From Acinetobacter sp. (GTDB lineage Bacteria > Pseudomonadota > Gammaproteobacteria > Pseudomonadales > Moraxellaceae): a stretch of 52,815 bases of DNA. Each line of letters starts with the position of its first letter. Position 1 is the first letter of the stretch. Made by a program: the position numbers and the translations under genes. Positions 28,751 through 52,815 of this stretch are shown piece after piece. The stretch covers positions 1 to 52,815 of the forward strand of contig JAITLL010000038.1 in NCBI GenBank assembly GCA_031277915.1, in the 5' to 3' direction. The notes under the pieces are model-generated. The model saw only the letters and a list, made by a program, of their open reading frames with translations. It did no database searches and had not been told where the DNA came from.

Positions 28751-28770
28751 TATTTTAAAGGTACAAAGTA

Positions 28771-29085: not shown

Positions 29086-29237
29086 ATTAGAAAAAACTGC
29101 TATAGCAGCATAGTACTTGTGCTGCTATATTTATGGGTTTAAAAAGCCTTTTCCTTATATTTCAATAACTAGCTTTTTTCCCACACCTCCTAAATTCAAT
29201 CAGTCATCTCTACAATAAAAGTTAAAACTGCAAAAAG

Positions 29238-29341: not shown

Positions 29342-29500
29342 ATTTTATAAATATTAAACATTTAAGCATTATTTAACTAAAGCATTTTATGTGCTTTAGT
29401 TAATCTAAATCAATAATCTTATTTTTATTATTGACTAATAATCAATAATATTTTGAAGCTAATCGGATTTATCTTTTTTCTTATTGAATTAGACTTTTCA
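29238..29500 (+). repeat. Direct duplication, copy B
   Basis: Second copy of the segment at 28493-28750: lysR tail, 12-bp-stem hairpin (29373-29403) and about 100 bp of AT-rich leader that ends close to the start of the cyclase-family gene. Base differences are scattered, so the event is not very recent. Confidence 0.85.
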
Positions 29501-29510
29501 TAACATTTTA

Positions 29511-30494: not shown

Positions 30495-30513
30495 TATTCA
30501 TAAACAAGCACCC

Positions 30514-30541
30514 ATAAAAAAAGCCCTTACGGGCTTTTTTT
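30514..30541. terminator. Bidirectional terminator between cyclase gene and gltS
   Basis: AAAAAAAGCCC TTAC GGGCTTTTTTT: a strong symmetric hairpin with A and T runs on both sides, between converging genes. Confidence 0.9.
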
Positions 30542-30543
30542 GA

Positions 30544-31779: not shown

Positions 31780-32122
31780 ATATACTACTTTCTGATTACA
31801 TTCCTAACGGATTGTAAAATAATTATATTTTAAATTTTAATATGTAAAAAAAACACAAATAAACTTTACAAAATTACCCTAGCAATAAAAATTTTCAACA
31901 TTCTTAAGAAAAGCTTAAATTTTTAAAATTTTACACAATAAATTTATTTATAATTTACTTTCAAACATTTACTTAAAATAATTCTTAATTAGAAAATTTA
32001 CCCCTTGATACCTTCAGCAGAAAATCCTGTCTTTTAAGTCACTGAACTCCCCTTTTATTCCATTTAATATTTATGTCAGACCAGCTCGTGATTGCTCTGG
32101 GTAACATCTGTTTTATATTCAA
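31780..32122. other. AT-rich divergent intergenic region
   Basis: About 340 bp between gltS and the PhaC-like gene. Very AT-rich with long A and T tracts (31840-31990), probably holding both promoters. No gene, clear palindrome or RNA motif was found. Confidence 0.5.
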
Positions 32123-33259: not shown

Positions 33260-33388
33260 TTAATTTAAAAAGTGGTAAAGCCAGTTCGATGCTGCTCAAA
33301 ATTATGTACAAGCCTTCTATCTCACTTTATTGATTTATAATGCTCTTGATTGCTTATCACAATTGATAAGTTAGATGTTTTTTGAAAA

Positions 33389-33424
33389 ATAAAAAGCTCC
33401 TTTTTCATTAAGGAGCTTTTTATT
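33389..33424. terminator. Bidirectional terminator between PhaC-like gene and permease
   Basis: AAAAAGCTCCTT and AAGGAGCTTTTT form a perfect 12-bp stem with A and T runs at the ends. Confidence 0.9.
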
Positions 33425-33458
33425 TATAAGGTTAGAATGTTTATTTATTATTTTTAAA

Positions 33459-34850: not shown

Positions 34851-34953
34851 ATTTCATTCCTTAAAAATATTTCCATTAAAACAACTTATTACATATTTGA
34901 AATCCTACAGTCATGAAAAAGGGAAAACTGCTGTTTTCCCTTTGTGGCAATCA

Positions 34954-36522: not shown

Positions 36523-36630
36523 TGTTGTTACTCCTTACTACAATTAATTTTCAGATCAAACTGTATTTTTCATTTAGTTTTTTAAAGAGCACCTATAAAC
36601 GCTACGGATGCTCATAAATATCTATAAACC

Positions 36631-38007: not shown

Positions 38008-38110
38008 AACCATTCCTGTTTATTTTCAAATTATGGTTTGAGTGTACATAGCGATATAAGTTTGATAAATTCAAATTATCTTGAGTTTAGATTTAAAAAA
38101 ACAAAACTAA

Positions 38111-39028
38111 ATGAAACCTAAAAAATTAAATCAAGTCACTGATTTTGATATAAAACTTCTCAAAATATTTAAAACAGTTTGTGACTGTCATAGTTTTACA
38201 TCTGCCGAAAGTATTTTAGGTATTAGCCGCTCTGCAATTAGTTTGCATATGAGTGATTTAGAAAATCGTTTGGGCATTCGACTATGTCAGCGAGGCCGTG
38301 CCGGATTTGCCCTCACCGATGAAGGGCGGGAAATTTTAGAATATATAGAAGTGCTCACAGCAGCCATTGAAGACTTCCGCTCTAAAGTCAACCAAATGCA
38401 TAACCGCCTTAAGGGTGAGTTTAATATCGGCATTATTAACAACCTTGTGACTATGCCCAGAGGCTATATCACCAACACCTTGACACAACTTGCCGAGGAA
38501 CATGCGGAAGTTATTATTAATATTAGTATGAGTACTTTGTCAGATATTGAGTGTCGCGTGCTCGACAGCCGTTTGCATGCGGGCGTTATTCCCCTTGTGA
38601 CGCCTTTATCTGGTTTAGATTATTTCGATTTATATAGTGAAAGTTCATATTTATACTGCGGCAAAAACCATCCTTTGTTTAACCAATGTAGCAGCATCAA
38701 TTTAAATGAATTAAAAAAATGGCAAGCCATTCTTCCTAATTATGCGATTACCTCGGAAGCGGCAAAGTTGCATCAGCTTTTAGACTGTAAAGCGACAGCA
38801 AGTGACCGCGAAGGGATTGCCTTTCTAATTTTAACTGGAAAATTTTTAGGTTTTTTACCCGACCACTATGCAAAAAAATGGGTTGAAGATGGTGTAATGC
38901 AAGCCGTTGCAAAAGACAGTATGCACTACAGTACCCCTATATGCTTAATTACTCATAAGGGTAAAAACCACAATAATATTTTAAAAACCTTTATGGAGAT
39001 GCTTAAGAAAAGAATCAGCAGTGATTAA
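38111..39028 (+). CDS. LysR-family regulator of the beta-alanine cluster
   Basis: 305-aa regulator with N-terminal HTH (FDIKLLKIFKTVCDCHSFTS, then AESILGISRSAISLHMSDLE) and a full effector domain. Divergent from the aminotransferase gene with about 100 bp between starts, hence the probable activator of aminotransferase-mmsA-permease. Inducer likely an omega-amino acid, but this is inference. Confidence 0.9.
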   Translation: MKPKKLNQVTDFDIKLLKIFKTVCDCHSFTSAESILGISRSAISLHMSDLENRLGIRLCQRGRAGFALTDEGREILEYIEVLTAAIEDFRSKVNQMHNRLKGEFNIGIINNLVTMPRGYITNTLTQLAEEHAEVIINISMSTLSDIECRVLDSRLHAGVIPLVTPLSGLDYFDLYSESSYLYCGKNHPLFNQCSSINLNELKKWQAILPNYAITSEAAKLHQLLDCKATASDREGIAFLILTGKFLGFLPDHYAKKWVEDGVMQAVAKDSMHYSTPICLITHKGKNHNNILKTFMEMLKKRISSD

Positions 39029-39122
39029 AAATATTTATGTATAGGCATAAAAATATATAGAAATGACAATTTTATTTAACGATTTGATAAAATCACATAA
39101 ATAGTTAAAAAAGTAAGTAAAT

Positions 39123-39473
39123 ATGCATTTAAATAAAAATTTATTTTACGTTCATCGCTGTGTAACAGGCTTTTATATTTTAATGTTGATCATAGCCATT
39201 TTCATACTGGCAAATTATGGAATAAAAAAAGAAAACTTAATTTTTTCTGTTTTTATTCTTGGCATTTATGCGGGCTTAGGTGCTTTACACTTTAGAGCTT
39301 CAAATGAAGTATCTAAAGGGACTGAATCTGGCAAAAATTTATCACAGGGTGTTGGAGTATTACTATTGCTTGGATTCCCGATTGGTACAATTTTGGGTAT
39401 TATCATTTTAGTTCTAACGACTAAAAAACGTTGGCAGTGGGGAGAACTACCAGAATATGAAAACATTGAATAA
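39123..39473 (+). CDS. Small membrane protein of unknown function
   Basis: 116-aa protein with three predicted membrane segments (FYILMLIIAIFILANYG; LIFSVFILGIYAGLGALHF; GVGVLLLLGFPIGTILGIIILV) and a basic C-terminal tail ending KRWQWGELPEYENIE. No family recognised. Located 95 bp after the LysR gene in the same direction. Confidence 0.7.
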   Translation: MHLNKNLFYVHRCVTGFYILMLIIAIFILANYGIKKENLIFSVFILGIYAGLGALHFRASNEVSKGTESGKNLSQGVGVLLLLGFPIGTILGIIILVLTTKKRWQWGELPEYENIE

Positions 39474-39624
39474 AGTTTTATTTACAATATTAGTTTTCAG
39501 AAAAACTCTAGTAATTTTTTGATGACCTAAATTTATAATTTATTAGCTTTAGTTTCATAAGAGACTAAAGCTAAATTAATATCAGCTTAAGCCTCACTTT
39601 ATGCATATAGTTACATTTATAATC

Positions 39625-40191
39625 TCAAAAATAAACCAAACCAAGCTTTAGTAAAAAGTAATCCAGTACCTTCTCTGTTTCAGTCACAGTGCTGTTATCT
39701 AACAGTTGGATAATTGTGCCCTCAATCACATATAAAAAGAGTCTAGCCTCATTAAATGTTGCATCGGTTTTTAACTGTCTGAGATGGCTATAAATTTCAT
39801 TGATAAGCCACATTCTATATCTCACTGCGGTCTGAAAAGCGTTTGGATAGCTAATTTTTGTTTCAAAAATGGCCTTAAATAATATGTAATATGGCCCTTC
39901 TATATCGCTATGTAAAAAGTACAGCTTCTTAAGTTTATCTAGTGTACTTGTAGCGTGGTCATATTCGACCATTTCAATCACTTGTTCTTGAAGACGTTCT
40001 TTTTGCACGATTAAACAGATTTCAATGAAGCGCTCTTTAGAGTGAAAATAATTATAAAACGTCATTTTTGTGACTTCAGTTTCTCTCACAATCTTGTCAA
40101 CACCAACAGTATGAAACCCACCGTGATGGAAAAGATGAATCCCTTTTTTTACAACATTTAAAGCACGTGGTGGGAATGTTAAATTTGGCAT
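39625..40191 (-). CDS. TetR-family regulator, paralogue of the gene at 9557
   Basis: 188-aa regulator beginning MPNLTFPPRALNVVKKGIHL at ATG 40191. A reading from 40299 adds 36 residues encoded by the flanking repeat and is rejected, since the paralogue at 9557 starts at the same point (MPN) and both have GGTAAAACT directly upstream. HTH: GIHLFHHGGFHTVGVDKIVR and TFYNYFHSKERFIE. About half the residues match the first paralogue. Upstream lies structured repeat copy 2, so gene plus element is a repeated cassette. Confidence 0.85.
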   Translation of the reverse strand: MPNLTFPPRALNVVKKGIHLFHHGGFHTVGVDKIVRETEVTKMTFYNYFHSKERFIEICLIVQKERLQEQVIEMVEYDHATSTLDKLKKLYFLHSDIEGPYYILFKAIFETKISYPNAFQTAVRYRMWLINEIYSHLRQLKTDATFNEARLFLYVIEGTIIQLLDNSTVTETEKVLDYFLLKLGLVYF

Positions 40192-40245
40192 AGTTTTACC
40201 GTTATAAAATAAATTTTTTTTGTATATAAATGAGATATAAAAATC

Positions 40246-40678
40246 TGTGCCCTTTCTGGGAGAAAAAAAGGCACAGCAAAACCCATAAAGACTGTGCATG
40301 GCACATCTTGAGTTTTATAGTTGCTAAGTTTTTGGTCGTGACGATTTAAAGCTTGATAAACCTAATGGCAATCAAACTGGTTAATAAACTAAGCTGTGTT
40401 GTTATAGCTTTTGGCAAAGGCTGCCAAGAAATAGTGAATGTACAAAGCCAACTCCTTTTTATTGGGAGTTCTGCCAGACATTAAAATTATGGTGGCAGAA
40501 CGAAAAGGGGTTAGCAGACTGGTCAAACGTGGCCAGCACACCCGAAGGTGTCCCCCTCCCGTTCCGCCGCAGAGGGGGCACGAGGGCTCAACACTAAAAG
40601 TATGAAACTTTTAATGTACGTTTGATGCGGTCTGCTAAAACCGACTGGCAATGTAGGCCAGCACGCAAAGGATAATAG
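40246..40678 (+). repeat. Structured repeat element, copy 2 (candidate C4-like regulatory RNA)
   Basis: Matches 10153-10592 in order and orientation, best over 40401-40512. Predicted stems: TGTGCC/GGCACA at the left end, AACTCC/GGGAGTT, GTTCTGCCA (40468-40476) with TGGCAGAAC (40493-40501), ACACC/GGTGT with CGAA tetraloop, and CTGGC/GCCAG near 40645-40662. Some positions that differ from copy 1 keep the pairing. Carries a small ORF in the same frame as copy 1. Confidence 0.6.
40438..40605 (+). CDS. Small ORF nested in structured repeat copy 2
   Basis: 55 codons, ATG 40438 to TGA 40603. Its N-terminal KANSFLLGVLPDIKIMVAER is identical to that of the ORF at 10346, followed by K.V.RLV in both, then diverging Pro/Arg-rich tails. 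Kept open in both copies, which mildly supports a translated peptide; overlap with the conserved hairpin core weakens that argument. Ash/Icd-like identity is a guess from memory. Confidence 0.3.
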   Translation: MYKANSFLLGVLPDIKIMVAERKGVSRLVKRGQHTRRCPPPVPPQRGHEGSTLKV

Positions 40679-40691
40679 TCACTATATTGAT

Positions 40692-40712
40692 CGTCAAGCA
40701 CAAAAAGTGACA
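40692..40712 (+). repeat. 21-bp direct repeat, left copy
   Basis: Identical to 42608-42628. It lies just past structured repeat copy 2 and begins the block with the orphan immunity genes. The core contains CAAGCACAAAAAGTGACA. Confidence 0.8.
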
Positions 40713-40971
40713 ACTGTTTTAAAATAAATCAGACAAAGTATTTGATAAATCAGTGGGTTTTAAGATGAACTACAGAATCTACGAGTAAAATCAGATGTTA
40801 TTATTTTTATAGGTTTTTAAAAAATAATGATTTCAACAATAAAAAGATTGGACTAATTTCTATAGTAGTTAATTAGAATAAATTATAAAACTAAGCCCCT
40901 TACTCATAGTTGGTTTGAGGCTTGGTAAATTCATTTTAATAGCACCTATTTAAAAATGCTACACAAAATAA

Positions 40972-41355
40972 TTAATGCTTCTTTTTAGAGAATTTATGAC
41001 CTTTAGGAAGTGGAGCATCACATGGTTGATCCGTCTTTACATCGACCATTTTCACTGGCCCATCATTGTAGACCGTTACTTTACAGCCTTTTACAACATA
41101 TTCCTGTTCAATACCACCGTACCTTTCATCATCAGAAACAGGAGCTACAGAAGTTACACCATAACAAGCTCCATCAGCACCGCATTCAACCTCTACTCCA
41201 CTAACATCAGCTCCACCCGCTTCTGCCACTTCTGCTCCAGCAGCTTCCATTGCATCAACCTCTTCAACCTGTGTCTTTGCTGCATATGTATTTGAAAGAC
41301 TCATCATCAGAAAAACTGCAAGAAAGAACTTACTACTGCGATTTATTGAATTCAT
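40972..41355 (-). CDS. Small exported hypothetical protein
   Basis: 127-aa protein with a clear signal peptide (SSKFFLAVFLMMSLSNTYAA). The mature part starts with an Ala/Glu/Gly-rich stretch (VDAMEAAGAEVAEAGGADVS) and has four cysteines, among them CGADGACYG and CKVTVY, suggesting disulfides in the periplasm. A basic C-terminus (KKKH) follows. No family recognised. It lies next to the orphan CDI modules but its relation to them is unknown. Confidence 0.65.
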   Translation of the reverse strand: MNSINRSSKFFLAVFLMMSLSNTYAAKTQVEEVDAMEAAGAEVAEAGGADVSGVEVECGADGACYGVTSVAPVSDDERYGGIEQEYVVKGCKVTVYNDGPVKMVDVKTDQPCDAPLPKGHKFSKKKH

Positions 41356-41503
41356 GTTTTATCCATAGTTATTGATTTGAAATTGGTGCTTTCTGGGAAG
41401 GAAAAGCTTCAACTTTCCTATTTTTCAAAAATATTAAAAAAATTTTAGAAGTCATACAATGTCATATAATTAGGTTAATTGGGGAGTAATTTTTTAGGCT
41501 ATC

Positions 41504-41791
41504 TTAACTTTGATAGATAACGTCATACTGACCAGTTAATTCTTCTCTTAAAAGATCGAATAATTCACTTCCTAATAGTTTGAATTCCCTCTCATCCTGA
41601 ATCGATTTAAAGGCAGAATTAATAGGATCATCTAAACATAAAGTTTCATTATACATATCAGGCCATAAGATAAGCTTATCTATTAGTATTTCTGATATTG
41701 GTAAATCTTTTGGATTTAAATTAGCTACTAAGCCAAATTCATCATATTCCCATAAAGGATAATATTTATAATCTAGCATTAACTTAATCAA
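41504..41791 (-). CDS. Solitary CDI-type immunity-like protein
   Basis: 95-aa acidic soluble protein. The pattern PLWEYDEFG...LNPKDLPISEILIDKLILWPDMYN...L and the final VIYQS resembles a common small immunity protein found next to polymorphic toxins (PLW...NIDP..LPLS..L...L..W...YD). No toxin fragment is attached, so it may protect against a toxin no longer encoded here. The family likeness is recalled, not searched. Confidence 0.5.
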   Translation of the reverse strand: MIKLMLDYKYYPLWEYDEFGLVANLNPKDLPISEILIDKLILWPDMYNETLCLDDPINSAFKSIQDEREFKLLGSELFDLLREELTGQYDVIYQS

Positions 41792-41883
41792 TTTTTCACA
41801 TAATTTCCTAAATTTTTAAAAATTTATCTACTATTGATAGGCTTATTTTATAAAGTAATATTTCATTTATAACTCTTAGTAGT

Positions 41884-42437
41884 TTATGAAAAATCCAATT
41901 TTTTTGGCATTCCATCAAGTCTTTGGACAGAACCGTCTAAAGTACTTTCTAATGTAACTTCAATTCCATATTTATGAATGTAATAGTCAATAACTTTATA
42001 TAACTCCTGATAACTATCATCTTCTGAAACAGAAATAAACCATACTAATTTACTAGGATCTCGACTACACACAATGGTATTATATTTAAATCGATTACCT
42101 TTCTTTCCTTTTAATATAGCAATATTATTTACATCTTCCCATTTAAGGTTTTTTTCTTAAAAAATAAGGTTCTATAATGCCCACCACTTTCATCAATATA
42201 AATTGGAAATACTGAAGACAAGCCTGAAAGCATCATAAAGAACCATCCTACCAAGACACCTACTAAAACAATTGTTTCATAATTAAAATCAATGATTATA
42301 TCAGAAAAACCTGTTAGATAGATTTTCCTTAAAACAAAGAACAAACCTACAAAACCAATTACTGAGGCTAAAAATACTCCAACTCTATCAGAATCTTTAT
42401 GAATATAAGAAGGTGCCGAGTAATCTAAATCATCCAT
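41884..42437 (-). pseudogene. Membrane-anchored CDI immunity-like gene broken by a frameshift
   Basis: Frame 1 (ATG 42437 to 42129) encodes two membrane helices (VGVFLASVIGFVGLFFVL and TIVLVGVLVGWFFMMLSGL) and then a PH-like start, YIDESGGHYRTLFFKKK. At a run of A near 42152-42158 the frame is lost; with one extra A the reading continues NLKWEDVNNIAILKGKKGNR and on to a stop at 41884. The joined product of about 183 aa would be a membrane anchor plus a soluble domain. It follows the toxin tail at 42440 by 2 nt, so it is the immunity partner of that lost toxin. Confidence 0.7.
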
Positions 42438-42439
42438 TC

Positions 42440-42610
42440 TTATTTCCCTCCTCCTTTATTATTTAAATTAGTTTTTTTAGGTTTAACTTGCTGAATTTTC
42501 TCTGCGGCAACGCCAACTACAGCTGAATTTAAACTCACTACAGTTTGAATTTTCCCACTTGCTCCTGCTGCCGCAACCGCAGCCTCACCACTAATTGCTG
42601 GTTTTGACGT
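42440..42610 (-). pseudogene. C-terminal tail of a lost CdiA/polymorphic toxin
   Basis: Open frame of about 56 codons without a start, reading AISGEAAVAAAGASGKIQTV then ending NLNNKGGGK. It stops 2 nt before the frameshifted immunity gene, the spacing expected of a toxin-immunity pair. The 5' end is cut exactly where the 21-bp direct repeat (42608-42628) begins, so the rest was removed by recombination. Confidence 0.6.
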
Positions 42611-42628
42611 CAAGCACAAAAAGTGACA
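42608..42628 (+). repeat. 21-bp direct repeat, right copy
   Basis: Identical to 40692-40712, same orientation, 1.9 kb apart. It marks the cut end of a toxin reading frame. Confidence 0.8.
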
Positions 42629-42749
42629 TTTTCACTAAAATATAGCAATTAAAATAATCGACAGTTAAACAAGTAGTTAATAAAATTTTTTAGAATATCT
42701 AACTAAAAAATTTATAATTTCACAATATGCATAAGATTAACTAAAATCA

Positions 42750-42784
42750 GGCTTCTAATAATTAAAATAGAAGCCTCTTTTTTA
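42750..42784. terminator. Hairpin with plus-strand T-run
   Basis: GGCTTCTA (42750-42757) pairs with TAGAAGCC (42768-42775), followed by CTTTTTT on the plus strand. On the minus strand, past the small membrane protein gene, the tail is less T-rich. It may serve both strands. Confidence 0.55.
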
Positions 42785-42874
42785 TAAATTAAAGTAAAAT
42801 ATTTAAGCAATAAATTTCATAACGTAGTCACAGATTGTAACTGCTACACTACCACCCTCTACTAGGTTACCTCC

Positions 42875-43180
42875 TTAAAATATAGAATATGATATATATA
42901 AGAATATTGACAATGTCATTATTATGAATAAGGCTCGCATACTAATATCAAAATCATTAGAATCTATATTTACTGAAGGAAATCCAACTGGTGATCCATT
43001 ATATATTGCAACAATAAATGCAAAATAGGATAAAACTAAGGCAAAAAATTCCTCACCAAATATAAAATTATTAAAAACAATTAGATGCCCAACAATTAAA
43101 ACACCAATACATGTACAAATTATAACGATTATCTTTCTATATTTTCCCATAATATAATTCAGCAATATATTTTTAATCAT
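42875..43180 (-). CDS. Small membrane protein, candidate immunity partner of the VENN module
   Basis: 101-aa protein from ATG 43180 with three predicted helices (KIIVIICTCIGVLIVGHLIVF; FFALVLSYFAFIVAIY; ALFIIMTLSIFLYISYSIF). The ATG overlaps the stop of the preceding CdiA fragment by four bases (ATGA), so the two are coupled. Membrane immunity proteins are known for CDI toxins that insert in the inner membrane, hence the guess that the attached toxin acts there. No family recognised. Confidence 0.6.
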   Translation of the reverse strand: MIKNILLNYIMGKYRKIIVIICTCIGVLIVGHLIVFNNFIFGEEFFALVLSYFAFIVAIYNGSPVGFPSVNIDSNDFDISMRALFIIMTLSIFLYISYSIF

Positions 43181-44034
43181 TTTCCACACCCAATTTGTTT
43201 AGGATTTTTCTCACAACTTATAACTCCTCCAGGTACTTTTTCTGCAACTTTACCCGATGTTTCACTAAAAATCTTTTCTACTGTTTCGGAATATAACCTA
43301 TCTCCGTCTGGTGTTTTTACACCTTTAACAACTTTACTTGCAGCGCTTCCAGCTATTGTAGAAAGTCCAATTTCTGCTCCCTTTTGATATATAGATTTTT
43401 CGTCATCTAACAATGTACTTGCTGTACCTAATAAAGTACCAGCACCGAGCAAATAAGGTGATGCAGGTGTCGGATATAAACCTACTATAGTTGCACCATC
43501 ACTTAAATTTCCTAATGTACCAGATGCCTCTTTCCTTAGTTTCGCATCTTGGTATTGTCCACATGCCGCTGAATTTGGATTAATACCATTTGCTTGACAC
43601 TCCGCACGCATTTTAGCAATAGACTTCCCTGCTTGCTTGTTACTTGCATCTGTAACTATTGAAAACTCATTATTCTCCACCGCATTCTGCGCAACCTGCC
43701 CACTCTGTACTGTAGAACCAATATCACCCGTCGTTGCTCCAACTGCACTACCCGCTAAACCTACAATAGAACTAATTGTAGATTTCTGATCTGCTGTGAG
43801 GTCTTTGGCAGCTTTCCCATACAAGAAACTCGATAATATTGGTGCCGCTCCCTCTGCTCCGCCTGCTGAAAGTCCCGCAGTCAACGCATCATTACCACCA
43901 GCCGCGGCAACTGCTGCGCCAAGGACTGTATGAGCTAAAATATGTGCAGCACTACCCTCGGCATCTTTGCCTTTATTAACGTACTGGCCTATCTCATAAC
44001 TGATTTTCGGACTTAATATTGATGCTGTAATTGC
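43177..44034 (-). CDS. Displaced CdiA C-terminal piece with VENN motif (5' truncated)
   Basis: Open frame of about 285 codons that starts directly after the stop of the upstream immunity gene; no convincing start codon (a TTG at 43884 is only formal). The N-terminal part (SYEIGQYVNKGKDAEGSAAH, AHTVLGAAVAAAGGNDAL) and QVAQNAVENNEF carry the pre-toxin VENN signature that separates the CdiA filament from its toxin. The remaining 140 residues would be the toxin: a Cys-containing linker, a Gly/Ala-rich hydrophobic stretch (YLLGAGTLLGTASTLL) and a tail with CEKNPKQIGCGK. Toxin type not recognised. Confidence 0.7.
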   Translation of the reverse strand, partial: AITASILSPKISYEIGQYVNKGKDAEGSAAHILAHTVLGAAVAAAGGNDALTAGLSAGGAEGAAPILSSFLYGKAAKDLTADQKSTISSIVGLAGSAVGATTGDIGSTVQSGQVAQNAVENNEFSIVTDASNKQAGKSIAKMRAECQANGINPNSAACGQYQDAKLRKEASGTLGNLSDGATIVGLYPTPASPYLLGAGTLLGTASTLLDDEKSIYQKGAEIGLSTIAGSAASKVVKGVKTPDGDRLYSETVEKIFSETSGKVAEKVPGGVISCEKNPKQIGCGK

Positions 44035-44397
44035 TCACAAATCATATTTTCTAAATATTCTTTCGATCTCTTCTCTTCTTGAGGGTTGCTCTTTCAAAAC
44101 ATTTTCTAGGCCTTGTCTAATATGAAACTTTACAATATCTTCCTCATAATCTCCTTCATTTGGTTCCAGGCCCATCATTTCATGTACCCAGGCGCAATAA
44201 ATAGTTGTACCATCTTCTTGTAACTCAGGAGCTAAACTCCAACCTGGATCACCACCTACAGGTTCCAATGGATCTTTACCTAGGGTTCCTCTCAAATAAT
44301 ATTCTAGATCTTGCCCTCCTGTTATTCCAAAACCCAAACACCAAAGCAAAGGCATTAAGTCTGCCGAATAGCCCTCTTCATTAATATAACCTATCAT
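44035..44397 (-). CDS. Immunity protein of the EndoU-like module
   Basis: 120-aa acidic soluble protein (MIGYINEEGYSADLMPLLWC, later EGDYEEDIVKFHIRQGLENV). Its ATG overlaps the toxin's TAA by one base (TAATG), typical for cdiA-CT/cdiI pairs. The acidic surface suits binding to a basic RNase. No named family recognised. Its TGA is immediately followed, in the same frame, by the VENN module. Confidence 0.65.
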   Translation of the reverse strand: MIGYINEEGYSADLMPLLWCLGFGITGGQDLEYYLRGTLGKDPLEPVGGDPGWSLAPELQEDGTTIYCAWVHEMMGLEPNEGDYEEDIVKFHIRQGLENVLKEQPSRREEIERIFRKYDL

Positions 44398-45038
44398 TAT
44401 TTGGCTCCTCCAGAAATAGGATTTATAGGGAATGCTGATGGCACATAATTAGTCCCCTTATATGAGCTAATCGGCACTCTAAAAGTAATCCCATTCACGA
44501 TTACATGCTGTATTTTATTACCATTCACTCCATAATTTACGATAGCTTTTGATGCTGCCTCATTTGCCATCGCTGCCATTTGCTTATCAGTGTATACTTT
44601 TGGGTCATAAACTGTTTTTGTCTCAACTCTTCCATTTGGTAATTGATATTTAATATCCATAATTCCTTTGGAAACTTGAGTTGGATTACTAATTACTTTC
44701 CCCCCATTACTATTAAGGACTTCATAGAAATTATCAGAATTATGTCCACCTGAAATTACTTTCTGATTTTTACGCCCTGCAACTTCACCACTGATTAAAT
44801 GTTTTCCTAAAGGTGTATCAATCTGGCTTGTGCCTGGAGGAGTCAAACCATCTCTAGGTCTAACAGAAACCTGACCAGCGAAATTCGCCTCTGGTTCAAT
44901 AGTAACTGGTTCTCCTTTCTTCAGATTAACTTCTGCTACTTTCTCAGTTGTTTTGACCTCACTCTTAACACTTTGTGATAACTTCCCACCAACTTTACCG
45001 AGTAAAACAGCCTCAGCAACAGCTACCGCTCCATTCAA
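44397..45038 (-). CDS. Displaced CdiA-CT toxin with EndoU-like nuclease domain
   Basis: 213-aa product. The first 27 residues (NGAVAVAEAVLLGKVGGKLS) are the shared pre-toxin segment also found at 46180-46280. After about residue 80 the toxin domain shows the bacterial EndoU layout: first His in GKHLISGEV, second His in ISGGHNSDNF, and a C-terminal strand with TNYVPSAFPI resembling the EndoU Thr/Tyr motif. EndoU toxins cut RNA. The likeness is by motif reading only. It has no secretion region, and the part that should precede it is frameshifted at 45039-45210, so it is an orphan module. Confidence 0.65.
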   Translation of the reverse strand: MNGAVAVAEAVLLGKVGGKLSQSVKSEVKTTEKVAEVNLKKGEPVTIEPEANFAGQVSVRPRDGLTPPGTSQIDTPLGKHLISGEVAGRKNQKVISGGHNSDNFYEVLNSNGGKVISNPTQVSKGIMDIKYQLPNGRVETKTVYDPKVYTDKQMAAMANEAASKAIVNYGVNGNKIQHVIVNGITFRVPISSYKGTNYVPSAFPINPISGGAK

Positions 45039-45210
45039 AGCATCTTGGCTTAACTGGCTAAGCTCTTGCTTTCTATTAGGGTTATAAGAATCAATGACTT
45101 TTTTTTCCCTTCTTGAGAAGTATAATCCCCAAAAACTTGGTTTTTTCCTTCTATTGCTGTGCTTACACCACCAACTACACTCACCCCTGCCAATGGTGCT
45201 CTCACTGTAT
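44956..45210 (-). repeat. Pre-toxin direct repeat, copy in EndoU module
   Basis: About 255 bp highly similar to 46178-46432. Encodes APLAGVSVVGGVSTAIEG, GDYTSQEG and DALNGAxAVAEAVLLGKVGG. Provides the homology for exchanging toxin cassettes. Contains a run of 8 T (45099-45106) where the other copy has 6. Confidence 0.88.
45039..45210 (-). pseudogene. Frameshifted pre-toxin segment upstream of EndoU module
   Basis: Continues the CdiA reading APLAGVSVVGG...FGDYTSQEGKK in another frame and is separated from the toxin frame by a 2-base expansion of the homopolymer at 45099-45106. Its left end falls about 27 bp from the stop of the immunity gene at 45237, where homology to the upstream module begins abruptly. 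Confidence 0.75.
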
Positions 45211-45236
45211 AATCTTAACCGCTATCTGTATTTACA

Positions 45237-45641
45237 TTACTCGATACTCGCTAATCTAGTATCATATCGACTATCTCGTACAACATACGGCTCGACAATA
45301 TCTTCCCATACTTGGCGAGCCATATTCTGCCATTTAGCCATATCTATTATATAATCTCTTTTACCCCAATCCTCTATTTTCATATGCTTAAGATATTGTC
45401 TAATCAATTTAATAGATAAATTAAAGTTAACTCTGTCCAACTCTTCAAAAGTATAGAATTTTAAATACTGACCCTCTTCTGATTTTATGCTTTCATGTAA
45501 TTGAGGATAGTTTGGCAAAAGAACTTCATCCAATAAATCACCAAATGCATCCCAATATGAACTGTTGAGATACTCTATAGTCCATCTTTCTTCGATACTT
45601 TTAGCTTTATCTTGACTAAAAATAATATGCTCTGTACTCAT
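45237..45641 (-). CDS. Immunity protein of the second CdiA-CT module
   Basis: 134-aa acidic soluble protein with no signal peptide (TIEYLNSSYWDAFGDLLDEV, YLKFYTFEELDRVNFNLS). It follows the toxin stop at 45647 by five bases and is therefore the cognate immunity candidate. No family recognised. A new CdiA fragment begins about 27 bp beyond its stop. Confidence 0.62.
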   Translation of the reverse strand: MSTEHIIFSQDKAKSIEERWTIEYLNSSYWDAFGDLLDEVLLPNYPQLHESIKSEEGQYLKFYTFEELDRVNFNLSIKLIRQYLKHMKIEDWGKRDYIIDMAKWQNMARQVWEDIVEPYVVRDSRYDTRLASIE

Positions 45642-45646
45642 AAAAG

Positions 45647-47779
45647 TTACCTTACGATTATAATTTTATCTCGCTGAGATTTTGGTAGTGATTGAAGATA
45701 ATTTAAAAATATTTTTTGATTATTAGGGGTTAAAACTCTAAAATCTATAGGAACAAAATCAGCCTTATTAAGGTGTTCTTGAATATTTTGTTTACCAGAT
45801 CCCATTGTCATATTTTTTTCATAAAACTTATTCAACCCATCAATCTCTTTTTGTGAAAGATTATCAGTAGTATACATAGCATCTACTGTTTTACCTTTAT
45901 TTGGTCCTGATACTATTTCCCAATCAGGATTTTTATTTAACTGACCACCTGATAGTTCATATTTTTTCATTGGACCAAGCACGCTTTCTAATTGAGCACC
46001 AGTTGCAGCCTCAGCAGGTTTAAGTTTTCCTTGATCAAGCTTATTCAACTTATCATGACTATTCAGGGGAGTTGTTGAAGGATTTACTTCTTTTAAGCCC
46101 GTTATAGGGTTTACTGTAATTTCACTATTAGTCTTAGTACCTGATTTTGTACCATCATTCATTACCTGCTCAGAAGTTTTAGCCTCACTTTTTGCCCCTT
46201 GTGATAGCTTTCCACCAACTTTACCAAGTAAAACAGCCTCCGCAACAGCTATAGCTCCATTCAAAGCATCTTGGCTTAACTGACTAAGCTCTTGCTTTCT
46301 ATTAGGGTTATAAGAATCAATGACTTTTTTCCCTTCTTGAGAAGTATAATCCCCAAAAACTTGGTTTTTTCCTTCTATCGCTGTGCTTACACCACCAACT
46401 ACACTCACCCCTGCCAATGGTGCTCCGACTGCACAACCGAGTCCTGTGGTACATAACCCAGCACCTGCTGCACTACCACCAATTGCTGTAACACTACCAG
46501 TGATTACCTTTCCTGCACCTCCTACTCTTGTTACAGCTTCATCATGATTCGTCCGAATATCATTCGCTTTATCCCAATTTGAATAGGTAAATAACCCAGT
46601 TGCTTTTAAAGCATTTTGCTCTTTAATATAGGTTTTTCCTAGCGCTTCAAATGCTTTCAGAGTTTTATAATTGACATCACTTTCTGGAACACCTTCTGAA
46701 CAATGTACCAATGCACATGCGGCTGCTCTTAATCGAGTCTGTTCCACTTCCGTTTTACCTTCGGTTAGTTTTTTCAGAACTTTGGCTTCATCAACATGCA
46801 ACTGTCTGTTATTTGCATCTACATTCACTGCTGTTGCTGTACTACCCGTATTTAAACCTGATGCAACTCCTGCACCTGCAAGTGTCAAACTGGTTACACC
46901 ACTTGCAACAGCTTCGGCTGCTTTTTCACTCATACCCGTATGAGTTAAAGCCTGAGCTACACTGTTTTGGAAATCATTTATTTTAGGTGCTGAAGCTGCA
47001 ACCGTGCCTGTCGTAATCGCACCTTCAAGTGTGCCTGTACCTAATGCTCCCAAGGCGGTATGCATCGCTACACGATATATTCCCCCTTCATCCCACTTCT
47101 TCGCTTCTGCCTCATTACCTTGTGCTCGTAAAATCAATGCTTGTTTTTGAGCATAATCTGCAACAGCTTTAGGAGCATTTTCACCAAATTTTTGAGTTAC
47201 TGAAACTTGAGTATTAATCTCTTTTAGAACTTTATCTTTATCAAAGTTGTTTTGCAGTGCTCCACTAGTCTCACGTGCCGTATCTGTGGTTACAGACGTT
47301 AATATCTCAGATTTAATCTGTCCGGCAGTTTTACCCGTTAAGGCTTGCTGGCCTTGTTCATCTCGAATTGTAATGTTTTGAGTATTAATACCACTTTTGG
47401 TCACACTACTATCTTTATCGCTGTCTAGACCAAACCCAACAGATTTACTTACCCCTACTGTTGTTGAAGCGTGTTGGTCAATTTTGTTTGGTGTCGAAAG
47501 TACAGTGCCAGGTTCTTTGTTACCTGCCGTGCTAGTTTTTCCGGCATTAAAACCACCACCTACAGAAATACCCTTGGCATCATATTCAGTCACGTTTTGA
47601 ATGTTAGAAGATGTTAAAGTACCTGTATCTAGACTATTTTTCTTCAGGTTTTCCGCAGCTTGAGTCGAGGTAATAATCGCACCTTTTAAATCGGTGTTCT
47701 TATTTACCTTAATCTGGTAACCGTCATCTCCTGCATAAATACCAACTTGATCCTGTACTGATGCATAATGGGCATTCAC
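45647..47779 (-). CDS. Displaced CdiA C-terminal region with possible PD-(D/E)XK nuclease toxin
   Basis: 710-aa frame with a formal GTG start at 47779; the reading continues upstream to an in-frame TAG at 47846. The first half is CdiA filament end (SVQDQVGIYAGDDGYQIKVN, ISVGGGFNAGKTS) and the middle is Gly/Ala-rich (GVASGLNTGSTATAVNVDAN). The shared pre-toxin block (46178-46432) is followed by the toxin: AATGAQLESVLG, then PDWEIVSGPNKGKTVDAMYT and FVPIDFRVLTPNNQKIFLNY. E...D-x-E...K spacing is compatible with a PD-(D/E)XK nuclease, as in several CDI DNases and tRNases, but the class is uncertain. No signal peptide or TpsB-export region, so not secreted from here. Confidence 0.72.
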   Translation of the reverse strand: MNAHYASVQDQVGIYAGDDGYQIKVNKNTDLKGAIITSTQAAENLKKNSLDTGTLTSSNIQNVTEYDAKGISVGGGFNAGKTSTAGNKEPGTVLSTPNKIDQHASTTVGVSKSVGFGLDSDKDSSVTKSGINTQNITIRDEQGQQALTGKTAGQIKSEILTSVTTDTARETSGALQNNFDKDKVLKEINTQVSVTQKFGENAPKAVADYAQKQALILRAQGNEAEAKKWDEGGIYRVAMHTALGALGTGTLEGAITTGTVAASAPKINDFQNSVAQALTHTGMSEKAAEAVASGVTSLTLAGAGVASGLNTGSTATAVNVDANNRQLHVDEAKVLKKLTEGKTEVEQTRLRAAACALVHCSEGVPESDVNYKTLKAFEALGKTYIKEQNALKATGLFTYSNWDKANDIRTNHDEAVTRVGGAGKVITGSVTAIGGSAAGAGLCTTGLGCAVGAPLAGVSVVGGVSTAIEGKNQVFGDYTSQEGKKVIDSYNPNRKQELSQLSQDALNGAIAVAEAVLLGKVGGKLSQGAKSEAKTSEQVMNDGTKSGTKTNSEITVNPITGLKEVNPSTTPLNSHDKLNKLDQGKLKPAEAATGAQLESVLGPMKKYELSGGQLNKNPDWEIVSGPNKGKTVDAMYTTDNLSQKEIDGLNKFYEKNMTMGSGKQNIQEHLNKADFVPIDFRVLTPNNQKIFLNYLQSLPKSQRDKIIIVR
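46178..46432 (-). repeat. Pre-toxin direct repeat, copy in second module
   Basis: In-frame copy of the block repeated at 44956-45210, with 6 T at 46325-46330 keeping the reading frame. Confidence 0.88.
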
Positions 47780-47915
47780 ATCTGACTTACTAAAACTACC
47801 TGATACTGATGTTCCATAACCTACCGTTGCTTGTCCTGAAACGTTCTACTGTTTACTCTTATAATCAGCCTTATTTTGTAAACTTTCTACATTGTCTTTA
47901 AGCTTTGATTTAATA
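47780..47915 (-). pseudogene. CdiA coding remnant upstream of an in-frame TAG
   Basis: In the frame of the downstream gene it reads SIKSKLKDNVESLQNKADYK then SKQ, TAG (47846-47848), and NVSGQATVGYGTSVSGSFSK. A single base change from a CAG Gln codon would explain the stop. Homology seems to fade beyond about 47915. Confidence 0.65.
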
Positions 47916-47986
47916 GAATTTATAATTAAAAATTAGATACTACATTTCCCTTCAATTTCAAATCATGAATACTCTTTTATAAAAAT

Positions 47987-48016
47987 AAAAAACCTATCAA
48001 TATTGATAGGTTTTTT
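47987..48016. terminator. Strong terminator after the cdiI of the main cdi operon
   Basis: AAAACCTATCAA TA TTGATAGGTTTT is a perfect 12-bp stem with A and T runs. It lies 24 bp after the immunity gene stop and separates the main cdi operon from the displaced modules. Confidence 0.88.
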
Positions 48017-48039
48017 ATTGAATATTAAGATTCATAAAT

Positions 48040-48480
48040 CTATTTTTTATTTTTCTCTTTCAATTTTACCCGTTTAGCCCACTCATCAAAAGGAATGTTA
48101 TATTCATCTAATTCTTCTTCTTTCAGATCACTAACAGCTTTCATATACAAATTTACCCAGCTGTCTTCTCTTGGAATATAACCAAATTCAGTACTAAATT
48201 TACCACTATTAGTAAGTGTAATTTTAAAATGTGTCCATTTTTCTTTAAAAACATCTAATAATCTTAACTCTTCAATCAAATTGACTATTTGGTCTTCAAT
48301 TTCATATGGTCTTTGGCCCATTTCAAAACTAATTATCTTTCGTTCTTTAGTTAACCATTCAGCACCACCAGCTGAATAATCAGGATAAATACAACCTACG
48401 AAGTAAATTTCTAAAGCATCTTCTGGCATGATTGACCATAATAACTCACCAATTTTTTGGTATATTTCTTGATCTTTCAT
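48040..48480 (-). CDS. cdiI: CdiI immunity protein, YezG/DUF600-like
   Basis: 146-aa acidic protein. IYQKIGELLWSIMPEDALEI at the N-terminus and LLDVFKEKWTHFKITLTNSG, together with a short FSTEFGYIP stretch, fit the YezG/DUF600 immunity family, which in Gram-positive bacteria protects against nuclease-ended LXG toxins such as YeeF. It starts three bases after the cdiA stop, as expected for the cognate immunity protein of the nuclease toxin. Family call is by eye. It probably binds and blocks the toxin in the cytoplasm. Confidence 0.78.
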   Translation of the reverse strand: MKDQEIYQKIGELLWSIMPEDALEIYFVGCIYPDYSAGGAEWLTKERKIISFEMGQRPYEIEDQIVNLIEELRLLDVFKEKWTHFKITLTNSGKFSTEFGYIPREDSWVNLYMKAVSDLKEEELDEYNIPFDEWAKRVKLKEKNKK

Positions 48481-48483: not shown

Positions 48484-51400
48484 CTATTTTCCTGTAGCAG
48501 TATTTTTTAATCTTAATGGTGGTAATGTTTTGCCACCTACGTTTTGTTCAACAACAAAAGAACTAGGTCTCTTACTGGTTCCTGAATAAACTGGAGTAAT
48601 ATTAACTTTAACTGATTGATTACTTTCTAAAGCATTCTTCCAAGACTTTTCCAATTCATACCATGCTCCACCTGAACCATTAAATTTAGCATTCATTGGA
48701 ACAAGATTGATGCCTTCACCTGGCCCGTTAAACATAGATGCAATTAGGTGGCCACCATGATCATCTTGTGCTCTATCAGCTCGCCCAGAAACTTTCTGTT
48801 GATAACTGTTTCTATCAATTTTACCTAATTCTAGATCAGCTTGGACTGAACTTACACGACCATTTGCATCAGTCTTATAAGTATAACCATTTTCGAATTT
48901 ATAAATGGTGTTCGACTCAGGCTTATTCGCTAATTTATTCCAATCACCTTTAGAACCAGCCTTTAACTCAATAACTTCAGGTGTCGTTTTAGGCGGTAAA
49001 GAAAAACCATTTGTCTGAACATTTAAACTTGGATCAAAATCAGCCTTAAGTTTAACCTTCTTAGCAGCCTCAACAACAATTTTGCCTCCTTTCTTAGCAA
49101 CCGTGACTGTACCAGAACTTACAGCATTTAAAACTGTTGTCATCTCGGCATTACCCATCTTTTCAAAATCTGCTGGGCTGTTACCAACTAAATTACCTTT
49201 TGTTATGGTCTTTCCTGTTTGCCATAACTCGCCTGGAATATTTTTGACTCCATCCCAAATCGCTGCCATTGTTCCCATCGGATCTTTAGTCAGTGCATCG
49301 TAAACTTCTTTTGGAACATTTGGCAGATTTTTGATGTCATTCATGAATTTTGTAGTTGCTTTAGCCTGACCAAGCCTAAATGCTTTTTCTTGTGCAGCAT
49401 CCATCTTTTGATAGGCAACCGTACATTCCTGACTCCAACATCCTAAGTGCTTTATATCTTGCCAGTATGATGTTTTTTCATCAATCTGATCTCCATGATC
49501 AGATATTGCGTCTAGTGCTTTAGTGTTGTCTTTTTCTAATACAGCTATATTTTGCGCTTGAGTAGAAACATCCTTTCCGTCACCTAATTGAACTTTATAT
49601 TGATCAATTGTGCCTTGGTTGTTTTTAACTCCTGACTCAAAAGCCCAATCAGTAGCCTGACCTACCAAATCTGCTGAAGTTTCATTGCTAATCCCTTGTC
49701 CATGCGCTATTTCATGACCTGTTGTGCTTATGATAGATGATCTGTTTTCATTATTTACGTCTAAAACAACAGTATTTGTTTGATGGTCATAAGCACCTTT
49801 AATACCAAGGAATGAAGTTATTGATGTTGTCAGTACATCCACATCTTGCCCTAATGCTTGAGCTAATAATTGAATGCTGCCTTTCATCTGTAATAAGCCG
49901 TCATAATTTCCATTTTTGAATTGTTCGAGCACCGTTGCTGCTTCCGGATGCTTCTGTACAAAATCGAAAGTTCGTGCAGGATTCATAACAGTGTCATAAG
50001 CTTGTTTTAGATTTTGGTCTCCACTTGCTAAAGCAGCCGTCGCCACGCCTAAACTTGTTACGCCTGCTGCTGTCATTTTTCCAACAATCTCAGCATTCTG
50101 TGGCAAATCTTTCTGCTGCTGAACAATCTCCGCTCTTCCACTTTCACTCAGTAAACGATGATCTACCGTCACACTACCATTTAACATTCCTGTAGTTTGA
50201 TCACGGGTAATCTCTTGAGTGCTGTTAACATCACGGTTAGTTGCAGTTGGAGCACCAGTAACTATTCCTAGTCCCATCGTGGCTTTGGTTAACTGCTCCG
50301 TTTCCTGCCCATTACTTTGTAAGCCTACCGTCGTACTACCATTCGGATATTTGCCTTTTTCACCGTCTTTCTCTTGAGTAGTCTTACCAATCGTCGTAGA
50401 TACATTTAGCCCACGGCTACTATTATAGTTATGGTCTTGAAGATCTTTGAGCTCTAACGCACCGCTATAATTCAGGCCTTTATGGTCAGTCAATGTACCA
50501 TCTGCATTCTTAGTCGCATTTGCAATCACACCACCAATATTCGTAACCTGTTTAACTCCCATCGCATTCAGATCAGCTGTATTTTGGGCATTACCAATCA
50601 ATAATTTACTGGTATTATTGACCCACGCGCTGTCGCTACTGCCCTTGCTTTGGTTATAGCTGGCACTAACATTACTGATTCCACTTGAACCAAAGCCTGC
50701 TCCAATACTGCCACCTTTGCTACTGTTACTACTTTTCGCGGTATCTTGTAAACTTTCTACATGGATTTGATTGACCTGCAAATTACCTCGGTCTGCAATG
50801 GAAACTTCGCCACCTTGAATATTGAGTTTATTCAACTGACCTTCTGTACGGTTTAATGCAACCTCACTGTTCACATGGGTGAGGCTTTCACTTTGTGATT
50901 GACTTGTTTGTTTGCCAATTGAAGCACTTCCACTACCACCTGAACTATAGCTAATACTTTGATTGTTAGTTTTACTGCTGCTTTCTTGTGAACTATGTTC
51001 TGTACCCGCCGTTACATTTAAATCTTTAGTTCCATTGAAGGTCGTTGTGCCTGTAGCACTTAAACGACTGCCCTGAATATTGGCATTTTGGTCTTCTGAT
51101 TTAAGTGTCAGATTATTCAGGTCTAAATTACTACCTTGCCAATGTCCCTGAGTCTGGTTGCTATTGGTTGTGGTTTCTATGCGCTCACCATTCGCACCAA
51201 TGGTAAAACCATAAGTTGCTGAACTGGCAGCTGCCGCGGCAGCTGAAGCACCTACTGCAATTTGTGCGCTGGCTAAGTTTGCTGTAGCCATCGCAACATT
51301 CGTTTTACTGTCATCTAATGCGTCTTTGGTGAGTTTGCCTGCTGCATAATCACGCTGTGCCTGACTATAAGCATCTTTGGCATCTTTCAAAGCCGAAGCC

Positions 51401-52815
51401 GCATCTTTCACCGCACCCACTGCGAGTGCAGCATCTAAATAAGCATTACGGACTCCAACCTCTACACTCGTTTTTTCATTTTTTGTTGTTTTTTCTGTGA
51501 TGGTTTTATTTTCATAACCACCAATATTAAGTTCTCCTCGACCATGGTCTATCGTAGTATCGCCTGTTGCCTTAATATTCTGTCCTAGAATATCAACGCC
51601 TTCAGCCCCATTAATACTTAGGTTATCTGTATTAATGCTACCCGCCTTACGAGTCGTTTCAGTCACCGTTAAAGTATTTTTATCTTTTTCAGAAACAAAA
51701 CCGCCTAAACGAATACTGTCCTTATTCAACTTAGCTCCTAAACCTTCTATGGTTTCAGTGCTATGGCTACTGCTTTCGATATTTTGCTCTTCCGCAGCAT
51801 TTAATGTCACTTTTTGACCTGATAGTGCAACATTTTTCGCCGTCAGATCTGCGCTAGTTAATGTGGTTTGCCCAGATGAACCAACCGCAATATTTGCTGC
51901 ATTTAGACTCGAACCTGTTTGACGAATCTGTTCTGTTCTTTGACTATTTGATTCACCCACAGTAATTTTCTTATCAAGTTTAAGTCCTGGGGCCAAAGCC
52001 TCTAAACCCGACATTCCTACTGCAAGACCTTTTACAAGTTCTTTAGCAATACCTCGGTACCCTTTTTGCTGCTCATCCCACTGTTGGTCGTGAGTTTCTA
52101 AGGTAGATAAGGTCACATTTTCAGGCATCACGGAACCATCAGCAGCTTTTAATGTTCCATCTGCCTGACGTTGCATCAGGGTATTACCGACATAAATACT
52201 TTGCCCAGCCTGAACATCATTCGCTTGGAGCTCAATATTCTTACCAGCATTTATATCAACCGTATTGCCTGCTTTTAAAGTTGTTTGGGCAACTTCTTGG
52301 TCGATATAACCAGATTGTCGATTGTTATAAGTGGCTGCATTCTTTTTCGAAGAAGTCGCACTTGAGCTCTTCTCATCGACTGCTGAAAGTAGATTGACAT
52401 CACCTTGCTCTGCGTGAATCTGAATATTATTTCCAGCATTAGCTTGTACATGAGTAGCGCTAATATTGCCTTGCTGGCTATTGATAATTATATTCTGGCC
52501 GGCATTAAGCTGATTTGCCTGTGAAACTGTTTCATGAGCATTATAGGTAGAAGATTTTTTACCCCCAAATGATCCTTTCCACGAGGCTTGACTATCTACA
52601 GAACTTTGCTTTAATCCGTTATCCAGCTGAATATCTTTTTGCGCGAGTAATTCAATATTTCCTGCCTGACTAGAAAGCTGGACTGCTTTACCACTAATAT
52701 TTTGCCCTTGAACAATGAGCGAACCGACACTCGAAATCTGACTACCCACATCCTGCATTTTCTGGCTGCTTGAGTGATTCCGGGCGTCTTGATAGGTGTT
52801 AAGCTGATACCCCGT
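48484..52815 (-). CDS. cdiA: CdiA, contact-dependent inhibition exoprotein (5' end outside window)
   Basis: At least 1443 codons; the frame runs through the window edge, so the TPS export domain and receptor-binding part are not seen. The visible part holds filamentous-haemagglutinin-like repeats (AGNIELLAQKDIQL, GQNIIINSQQGNISA, AGNNIQIHAEQG, AGKNIELQANDVQ), a Ser/Gly/Asn-rich stretch (GGSIGAGFGSSGISNVSASY) and a pre-toxin part with HEIAHGQGISNE (49681-49716), a zincin-like motif. The last 110 residues form a DNA/RNA non-specific endonuclease domain (Endonuclea_NS_2 type): DDHGGHLIASMFNGPGEG, split here by the His at GGH, and NLVPMNAKFN with the metal-binding Asn. The toxin enters target cells; cdiI protects the producer. 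Confidence 0.9.
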   Translation of the reverse strand, partial: TGYQLNTYQDARNHSSSQKMQDVGSQISSVGSLIVQGQNISGKAVQLSSQAGNIELLAQKDIQLDNGLKQSSVDSQASWKGSFGGKKSSTYNAHETVSQANQLNAGQNIIINSQQGNISATHVQANAGNNIQIHAEQGDVNLLSAVDEKSSSATSSKKNAATYNNRQSGYIDQEVAQTTLKAGNTVDINAGKNIELQANDVQAGQSIYVGNTLMQRQADGTLKAADGSVMPENVTLSTLETHDQQWDEQQKGYRGIAKELVKGLAVGMSGLEALAPGLKLDKKITVGESNSQRTEQIRQTGSSLNAANIAVGSSGQTTLTSADLTAKNVALSGQKVTLNAAEEQNIESSSHSTETIEGLGAKLNKDSIRLGGFVSEKDKNTLTVTETTRKAGSINTDNLSINGAEGVDILGQNIKATGDTTIDHGRGELNIGGYENKTITEKTTKNEKTSVEVGVRNAYLDAALAVGAVKDAASALKDAKDAYSQAQRDYAAGKLTKDALDDSKTNVAMATANLASAQIAVGASAAAAAASSATYGFTIGANGERIETTTNSNQTQGHWQGSNLDLNNLTLKSEDQNANIQGSRLSATGTTTFNGTKDLNVTAGTEHSSQESSSKTNNQSISYSSGGSGSASIGKQTSQSQSESLTHVNSEVALNRTEGQLNKLNIQGGEVSIADRGNLQVNQIHVESLQDTAKSSNSSKGGSIGAGFGSSGISNVSASYNQSKGSSDSAWVNNTSKLLIGNAQNTADLNAMGVKQVTNIGGVIANATKNADGTLTDHKGLNYSGALELKDLQDHNYNSSRGLNVSTTIGKTTQEKDGEKGKYPNGSTTVGLQSNGQETEQLTKATMGLGIVTGAPTATNRDVNSTQEITRDQTTGMLNGSVTVDHRLLSESGRAEIVQQQKDLPQNAEIVGKMTAAGVTSLGVATAALASGDQNLKQAYDTVMNPARTFDFVQKHPEAATVLEQFKNGNYDGLLQMKGSIQLLAQALGQDVDVLTTSITSFLGIKGAYDHQTNTVVLDVNNENRSSIISTTGHEIAHGQGISNETSADLVGQATDWAFESGVKNNQGTIDQYKVQLGDGKDVSTQAQNIAVLEKDNTKALDAISDHGDQIDEKTSYWQDIKHLGCWSQECTVAYQKMDAAQEKAFRLGQAKATTKFMNDIKNLPNVPKEVYDALTKDPMGTMAAIWDGVKNIPGELWQTGKTITKGNLVGNSPADFEKMGNAEMTTVLNAVSSGTVTVAKKGGKIVVEAAKKVKLKADFDPSLNVQTNGFSLPPKTTPEVIELKAGSKGDWNKLANKPESNTIYKFENGYTYKTDANGRVSSVQADLELGKIDRNSYQQKVSGRADRAQDDHGGHLIASMFNGPGEGINLVPMNAKFNGSGGAWYELEKSWKNALESNQSVKVNITPVYSGTSKRPSSFVVEQNVGGKTLPPLRLKNTATGK

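Follow-up and report, generated by a model that had tools for sequence, protein, structure and literature searches.

Stacked toxin-immunity modules behind a probable type II contact-dependent growth inhibition locus of Acinetobacter, with scars that suggest how they were joined

The closest described relatives of the locus analyzed here are the type II contact-dependent growth inhibition (CDI) loci of Acinetobacter. In the parts of De Gregorio 2019 (PMC6336857) available to us, type II CdiA proteins are giants of 3711 to 5733 aa with 20-mer repeats, a PT-LPEN pretoxin replaces PT-VENN in class 3, loci at "site D" have a tRNA-Trp neighbor and a cdiB-cdiA gap of 63 bp, and orphan cdi segments lie behind most type II operons. 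The present locus shares with that account the genus, the tRNA-Trp site, orphan segments made of CdiA-CT plus CdiI, their 5'-to-3' stacking, and a model of displacement, there by illegitimate recombination; the published arrays come from another strain and hold another set of modules. The enteric arrays are similar in that mixed toxin types lie behind cdiBAI and conservation runs from one VENN to the next, and that of E. coli EC869, with eleven orphan pairs, is larger than the present one (Poole 2011, PMC3150448, as far as the available text goes). Immunity arrays of the Vibrio cholerae type VI secretion system also show sequential displacement with old immunity genes kept, but they belong to another secretion system and their effectors are replaced, whereas here toxin parts remain (the portion seen of Kirchberger 2017, PMC5361080). 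An initial annotation of this DNA had considered such a dense mix of toxins in one locus noteworthy; set beside most type II operons and the eleven pairs of EC869, that view is not supported, and the array is ordinary in kind, as orphan arrays have already been published for such loci. What is new is a copied array border that lies inside the array and is cut in the promoter of a C4-like small RNA (sRNA) gene, a second scar of this type in A. nosocomialis, and a shared EndoU junction combined with a switch of VENN allele. The available part of PMC6336857 contains neither a preformed-cassette crossover in VENN nor a duplicated C4-like array border; the words sRNA and small RNA are absent from its main text, and it mentions target site duplications at island ends.

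The window, by which we mean the whole stretch of DNA analyzed (52,815 nt), is the entire contig C41 of an 83-contig genome, so that the main cdiA is cut at position 52815 and cdiB falls outside the view. The array and the main cdiA all lie on the minus strand, and the orphan units together occupy about 47893-41504 (-). It is highly probable, in our judgment, that an active nuclease/YezG-like pair is followed here by five displaced former modules that were stacked by successive recombination. The features, in the direction of reading, are as follows.

48484-52815, minus strand: main cdiA, 3' part, 1443 aa, 5' end lost at the contig end; PF13332 hemagglutinin repeats and PF13930
48040-48480, minus strand: cognate immunity gene, YezG-like; PF04634, E 2e-7; adjacent pair also in genome G050
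47984-48019, minus strand: terminator hairpin and T run, closing the active unit; -17.3 kcal/mol, z -7.1 versus 200 shuffles
45647-47893, minus strand: orphan 1, cdiA fragment with a C-terminal tRNase; PF18664, E 5e-41; 5j4a, E 1.4e-18
46163-46436, minus strand: cdiA body repeat in orphan 1; partner 44937-45212
45237-45641, minus strand: orphan 1 immunity gene with an open frame of 134 aa; 68% to a G102 gene beside a matching toxin
44397-45212, minus strand: orphan 2, cdiA fragment with an EndoU nuclease, frame interrupted near the start; PF14436; 5hkq, E 2.9e-14
44937-45212, minus strand: cdiA body repeat in orphan 2; partner 46163-46436, 89% and 96% in two stretches
44035-44397, minus strand: orphan 2 immunity gene with an open frame of 120 aa; matched in 7 further genomes among the 176
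43177-44031, minus strand: orphan 3, VENN pretoxin followed by a short C-terminal region; PT-VENN PF04829, E 1e-10; 53% to G163
42875-43180, minus strand: orphan 3 immunity gene, hydrophobic, 101 aa; 48% to G163, beside the matching toxin
42608-42792, minus strand: internal copy of an array 3' border, with a terminator-like hairpin and sequence from upstream of a C4-like sRNA gene; 185 bases match A. baumannii VB280821 at 96.2% identity
42440-42607, minus strand: orphan 4, tail of a glycine-rich toxin; 53 aa match A. baumannii 2021CK-01407 at 77%
41884-42437, minus strand: orphan 4 immunity gene, frame broken; two pieces, 85 and 94% to A. baumannii 2021CK-01407
41504-41791, minus strand: orphan 5, lone open ORF, immunity-like by position only; 80% copy in the array of G053
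40972-41355, minus strand: conserved chromosomal flank ORF, 127 aa, no module; also in the flanks of relatives
40488-40574, minus strand: C4-like antisense RNA gene bordering the array; RF01695, 63.5 bits, cut-off 45

The initial annotation had drawn the array from 40972 to 48480. All elements that it named are in place there, but the outermost ORF is chromosomal flank, and copies 97 to 99% identical adjoin the arrays of A. nosocomialis (G008), G053, and A. seifertii NIPH 973. The genes on this visible side encode, by translation, TetR, LysR, an aminotransferase, an aldehyde dehydrogenase, and a permease; all are also present in those three relatives, and A. baumannii 2021CK-01407 shares the first three. 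On the other side of the array, which in the window lies beyond the contig end, both G008 and G053 carry cdiB next to tRNA-Trp, with a cdiB-cdiA gap of 63 bases in G008, and it is through these two orthologous sites that the location beside tRNA-Trp is seen. The named relatives of the locus are Acinetobacter. Judged by sequence relationships, the host belongs to or stands close to the A. baumannii-nosocomialis-seifertii group of Acinetobacter, and the locus is most probably the 3' end of a type II CDI locus at site D.

The main CdiA ends in a DNA/RNA non-specific endonuclease domain (PF13930, E 8e-36 in the profile search), and its best solved match is Staphylococcus aureus EssD (8guo, E 5.5e-24; 8gun is of the same family). 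EssD is a nuclease of the same family as the active toxin but belongs to type VII secretion in a Gram-positive bacterium. Its antitoxin is presumably of the DUF600 type, the same immunity family as that of the window's active immunity protein, since we take PF04634 to be the former DUF600; the nuclease toxin with a DUF600-like immunity protein that had been proposed from the sequence was thus found. Between 52755 and 50096, the main cdiA shows 88% DNA identity to the cdiA of A. baumannii VB280821, which as annotated has 4876 codons plus a stop, and in G050 the active pair terminates a 2605-aa CdiA with ESPR and TPS. CdiA, a surface protein, would deliver this one DNA/RNA nuclease toxin, presumably by contact, and the YezG-like protein would protect the cell by neutralizing the toxin inside. 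Pfam did not report PT-VENN in the visible 1443 aa of the main CdiA. Its pretoxin part contains a HEIAH (HExxH-like) motif at 49702-49716 (-), at which Pfam gave no peptidase family. The strong terminator that had been placed behind the active pair is there as the hairpin at 48019-47984, though the consensus terminator scan did not list it. DNA similarity of the window to a remnant in G053, described below, stops at this hairpin. We considered the terminator palindrome as a recombination site and rejected it, because short matches in 15 of the 99 other genomes searched make it look like a common terminator.

Profile searches, which had been recommended as a check, found families for four of the toxin regions (PF13930, PF18664, PF14436, and PF04829); among the immunity proteins, the main one matched PF04634, and no family exceeded its cut-off for those of orphans 1 to 5, nor was a convincing solved relative found for immunity proteins 1 and 2. 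PF18664 (CdiA_C_tRNase) covers the whole domain in orphan 1 (positions 1 to 116 of 116, 140 bits, cut-off 26.5), and the solved match 5j4a is a CdiA tRNA nuclease; for this toxin the initial annotation had proposed a possible PD-(D/E)XK domain, and the searches returned PF18664 and 5j4a. The orphan 1 fragment has one in-frame stop in its first part and is open from 47779. The EndoU match of orphan 2 (PF14436, EndoU_bacteria) reached an E value of 2e-6 and 28.7 bits against a cut-off of 25.3, and 111 residues align with the CDI toxin 5hkq, with one His and one Lys coinciding. In A. baumannii 2021CK-01407, the counterpart of the orphan 4 toxin is a 380-aa fragment with VENN, and the immunity gene behind this longer fragment is intact, as it is in A. 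nosocomialis (G008). These results agree with the initial annotation, which had listed an EndoU-like toxin with an immunity gene, a VENN fragment with a membrane immunity gene, and a toxin tail with a frameshifted immunity gene. Its solitary immunity gene stands as a lone ORF (orphan 5) and not as an immunity gene beyond its position, there being no toxin adjacent to it in the window and none seen beside its copies in G053, G132, and G113. The copy in the G053 array is interrupted by a stop, and no cdi gene adjoins the relatives in G132 and G113; that in G113 (L118 8269-8562) adjoins what we take to be a toxin-antitoxin-like pair and mobilization genes, away from any cdi gene seen.

The immunity proteins were searched in 176 genomes of the genus, the window's own counted, and matched in 7 (main), 3 (orphan 1), 8 (orphan 2), 8 (orphan 3), and 5 (orphan 5); the first half of the orphan 4 protein, used as the query, matched in 3 of the 176. 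The window's toxins were then searched by tblastn against the fetched loci with immunity matches. Toxin and immunity gene were adjacent in G050 for the main pair, in G102 for orphan 1, in G110, G140, G102, G019, and G129 for orphan 2, in G163 for orphan 3, and in G151, besides 2021CK-01407, for orphan 4, and some loci carry the immunity gene without a detected toxin (main in G064, orphan 2 in G126). The relatives of orphans 2 to 4 that could be placed lie in arrays, and fusion to a full cdiA was seen for the active pair (G050). Because other Acinetobacter genomes hold the main pair and orphan pairs 1 to 4 side by side as well, the explanation that these are unrelated cytoplasmic genes is ruled out, and the proposal of displaced cdiA-CT/cdiI modules is supported. 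The window thus holds cdiA-CT fragments with adjacent immunity genes in the position downstream of cdiBAI, with cdiB itself beyond the contig. In G102 the orphan 1 pair sits behind a main-type cdiA body, at a contig end; because its toxin rides a different cdiA body there, exchange is not strictly one-way. PT-VENN is present in 40 of the 176 genomes, and clusters with at least three VENN copies occur in 4 of them (six copies in G036, four each in G163 and G140, three in G037), a count that underestimates arrays, as the window shows with its single VENN for five orphans.

Comparison across Acinetobacter genomes, another check that had been suggested, gave the same side genes with largely different, partially overlapping modules at one site in the window, G008, G053, A. 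seifertii NIPH 973, and A. baumannii 2021CK-01407. The cdiA of G008 ends in a PF18451 toxin; 2021CK-01407 has yet another cdiA end, followed by the orphan 4 fragment and its intact immunity gene. In G053 (L036 6039-6359), the cdiA frame continues straight into what is left of the immunity gene that is active in the window, broken and with a stop inside, and the broken orphan 5 copy comes after it, so the active immunity gene of one strain is a wreck in another. The sequence there reads as if the G053 strain has lost its toxin end.

In the reading that we favor, every uptake of a foreign cdiA end was followed by recombination upstream, in the cdiA body; the old toxin-immunity end was thereby severed and stayed downstream, and the youngest orphan is probably the first. 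Of three informative scars, one is the pair of cdiA body repeats that orphans 1 and 2 have in common; from the other two we infer two kinds of downstream crossover. The first kind concerns orphan 2. Its immunity gene meets the following VENN fragment at one and the same position in the window, G110, and G140, which amounts to one independent witness because G110 and G140 are near-identical there, and the orphan 2 stretch, junction included, is 84% identical to G110 over 1.5 kb. Past about 43950, in blocks of about 50 bases, the VENN of the window shows 94 to 98% identity to the cdiA that is active in G008 and 60 to 84% to G110, and the sequences behind VENN differ. Because the junction is shared with G110/G140 while the downstream VENN resembles the G008 allele, the EndoU cassette most likely came with its junction preformed and crossed over by homology inside the VENN that it carried. 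The linker at 44031-43951 is 77 to 81% identical to G110 and 77 to 86% to an orphan of G036 and, resembling both, does not pin down the donor or the crossover. As to a fixed start site for the orphan VENN fragments, a candidate that we rejected, the starts lie close together at the head of the pretoxin region but do not coincide.

Two other origins can be weighed. Tandem duplication within the cell's own genome, with no import, would fit the cdiA body repeats shared by orphans 1 and 2 (89 to 96%). However, the identified toxins belong to different families, a repeat search found no other direct repeats in the array than one 54-base pair beside these body repeats, and orphan 2 matches G110 across its junction, so that at most the shared body stretch could have arisen by duplication; this origin is unlikely for the toxin parts and, for the array, very improbable. 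That separate intact cdi genes were broken by assembly error is scarcely credible. The contig does end inside cdiA, but fragments start inside CdiA on different backbones, the junction is shared with G110/G140, junctions or scars are matched in independent genomes, and comparable arrays stand on multi-megabase contigs of G008 and G053.

The second kind of crossover in the proposed stacking by recombination, which would have joined orphan 3 onto orphan 4, is suggested by the copied border at 42792-42608. This segment, whose hairpin has a z score of -3.3, breaks at a promoter -35 element and gives way to the orphan 4 toxin, and the matched stretch of VB280821 precedes a C4-like sRNA gene behind a cdi array. 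It looks like incoming DNA that brought along the array border of its donor and was joined non-homologously. The published Acinetobacter model is one of illegitimate recombination; this junction fits it, whereas that of orphan 2 fits homologous recombination of a preformed cassette.

Whether the stack serves its host is a separate matter. With the same origin, the array might be neutral debris, decaying modules of which none is expressed or selected, and we regard this as possible but doubtful. In its favor, orphan 4 has been shortened and carries a broken immunity gene, the frames of the orphan 1 and 2 toxin fragments are interrupted or contain a stop, a stop also lies in the G053 copy of the active immunity gene, and the consensus counts of promoter-like sites in the window, like those of terminator-like sites, show no excess over shuffles. 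Against debris, the immunity genes of orphans 1 to 3 and the orphan 5 ORF are open, and E. coli EC93 expresses its orphan immunity protein (PMC3150448, in the part available). Compared with G110, orphan 2 has dN/dS values of 0.09 (immunity) and 0.14 (toxin), and across immunity and toxin genes of the window, G110, G140, and G102 the ratio was 0.09 to 0.26 in seven of seven comparisons, one of which (G110-G140) has almost no differences underlying it. Orphan 1 compared with G102 gave 0.11 (immunity) and 0.12 (toxin), with synonymous sites near saturation. These low values against G102 and G110 suggest that orphans 1 and 2 have been under constraint, possibly while active, as dN/dS may mirror the time spent in active loci. 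Retention of the immunity genes is likely, and these genes may be useful against neighbors that carry older toxins. None of the toxin fragments has the 5' part of cdiA, and those of orphans 1 and 2 also lack a continuous frame; they are most likely a recombination reserve only, and their reuse by recombination is possible. Orphan arrays are records of past arms races, of which the present one is fairly readable, and may give immunity to several toxins at once.

G008 has a second internal border copy (L035 3300-3619), in which 328 bases match the A. baumannii 2021CK-01407 border at 89% identity, and in the flank alignment its similarity ends about 7 bases from the breakpoint in the window. Because the breakpoints of two scars in two species are thus separated by about 7 bases and lie close to the -35 element, we offer the tentative and rather improbable suggestion that a C4-like sRNA gene is a fixed 3' border of cdi arrays at this site and that, on the 3' side, incoming cdi DNA preferentially breaks in its promoter and is attached there to the older array. 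If true, such a border would help to account for the growth of arrays in place of their replacement. The two scars are a lead and not a result. A C4 gene lies within 10 kb of VENN in at least 6 of 39 other VENN-positive genomes read by eye (G008, G037, G085, G134, G014, and G004), and one case was seen among 12 genomes added later, but this proximity was a post hoc idea in genomes that share sites by relatedness and is likewise a lead only. A text search for literature joining contact-dependent growth inhibition, C4 antisense RNA, and Acinetobacter found none; an abundant class of C4-like sRNAs has been published for A. baumannii (PMC5320573, seen in part). RF01695 (C4) has 26 matches in the window's genome, 25 of them above the cut-off.

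Some minor observations concern the surroundings. No second full CDI locus was seen on contig C78 within 24000-41718; that contig (of G000) has a short cdiA remnant at about 38195-38469, some 3 kb before a C4-like RNA gene at 41345-41429. The window contains a second C4-like antisense RNA gene (RF01695) at 10396-10479 (-), and both of its C4-like genes lie just upstream of a TetR-like gene. By their translations, the genes at 14440-20465 (-) have the look of a putative chaperone-usher fimbrial cluster.
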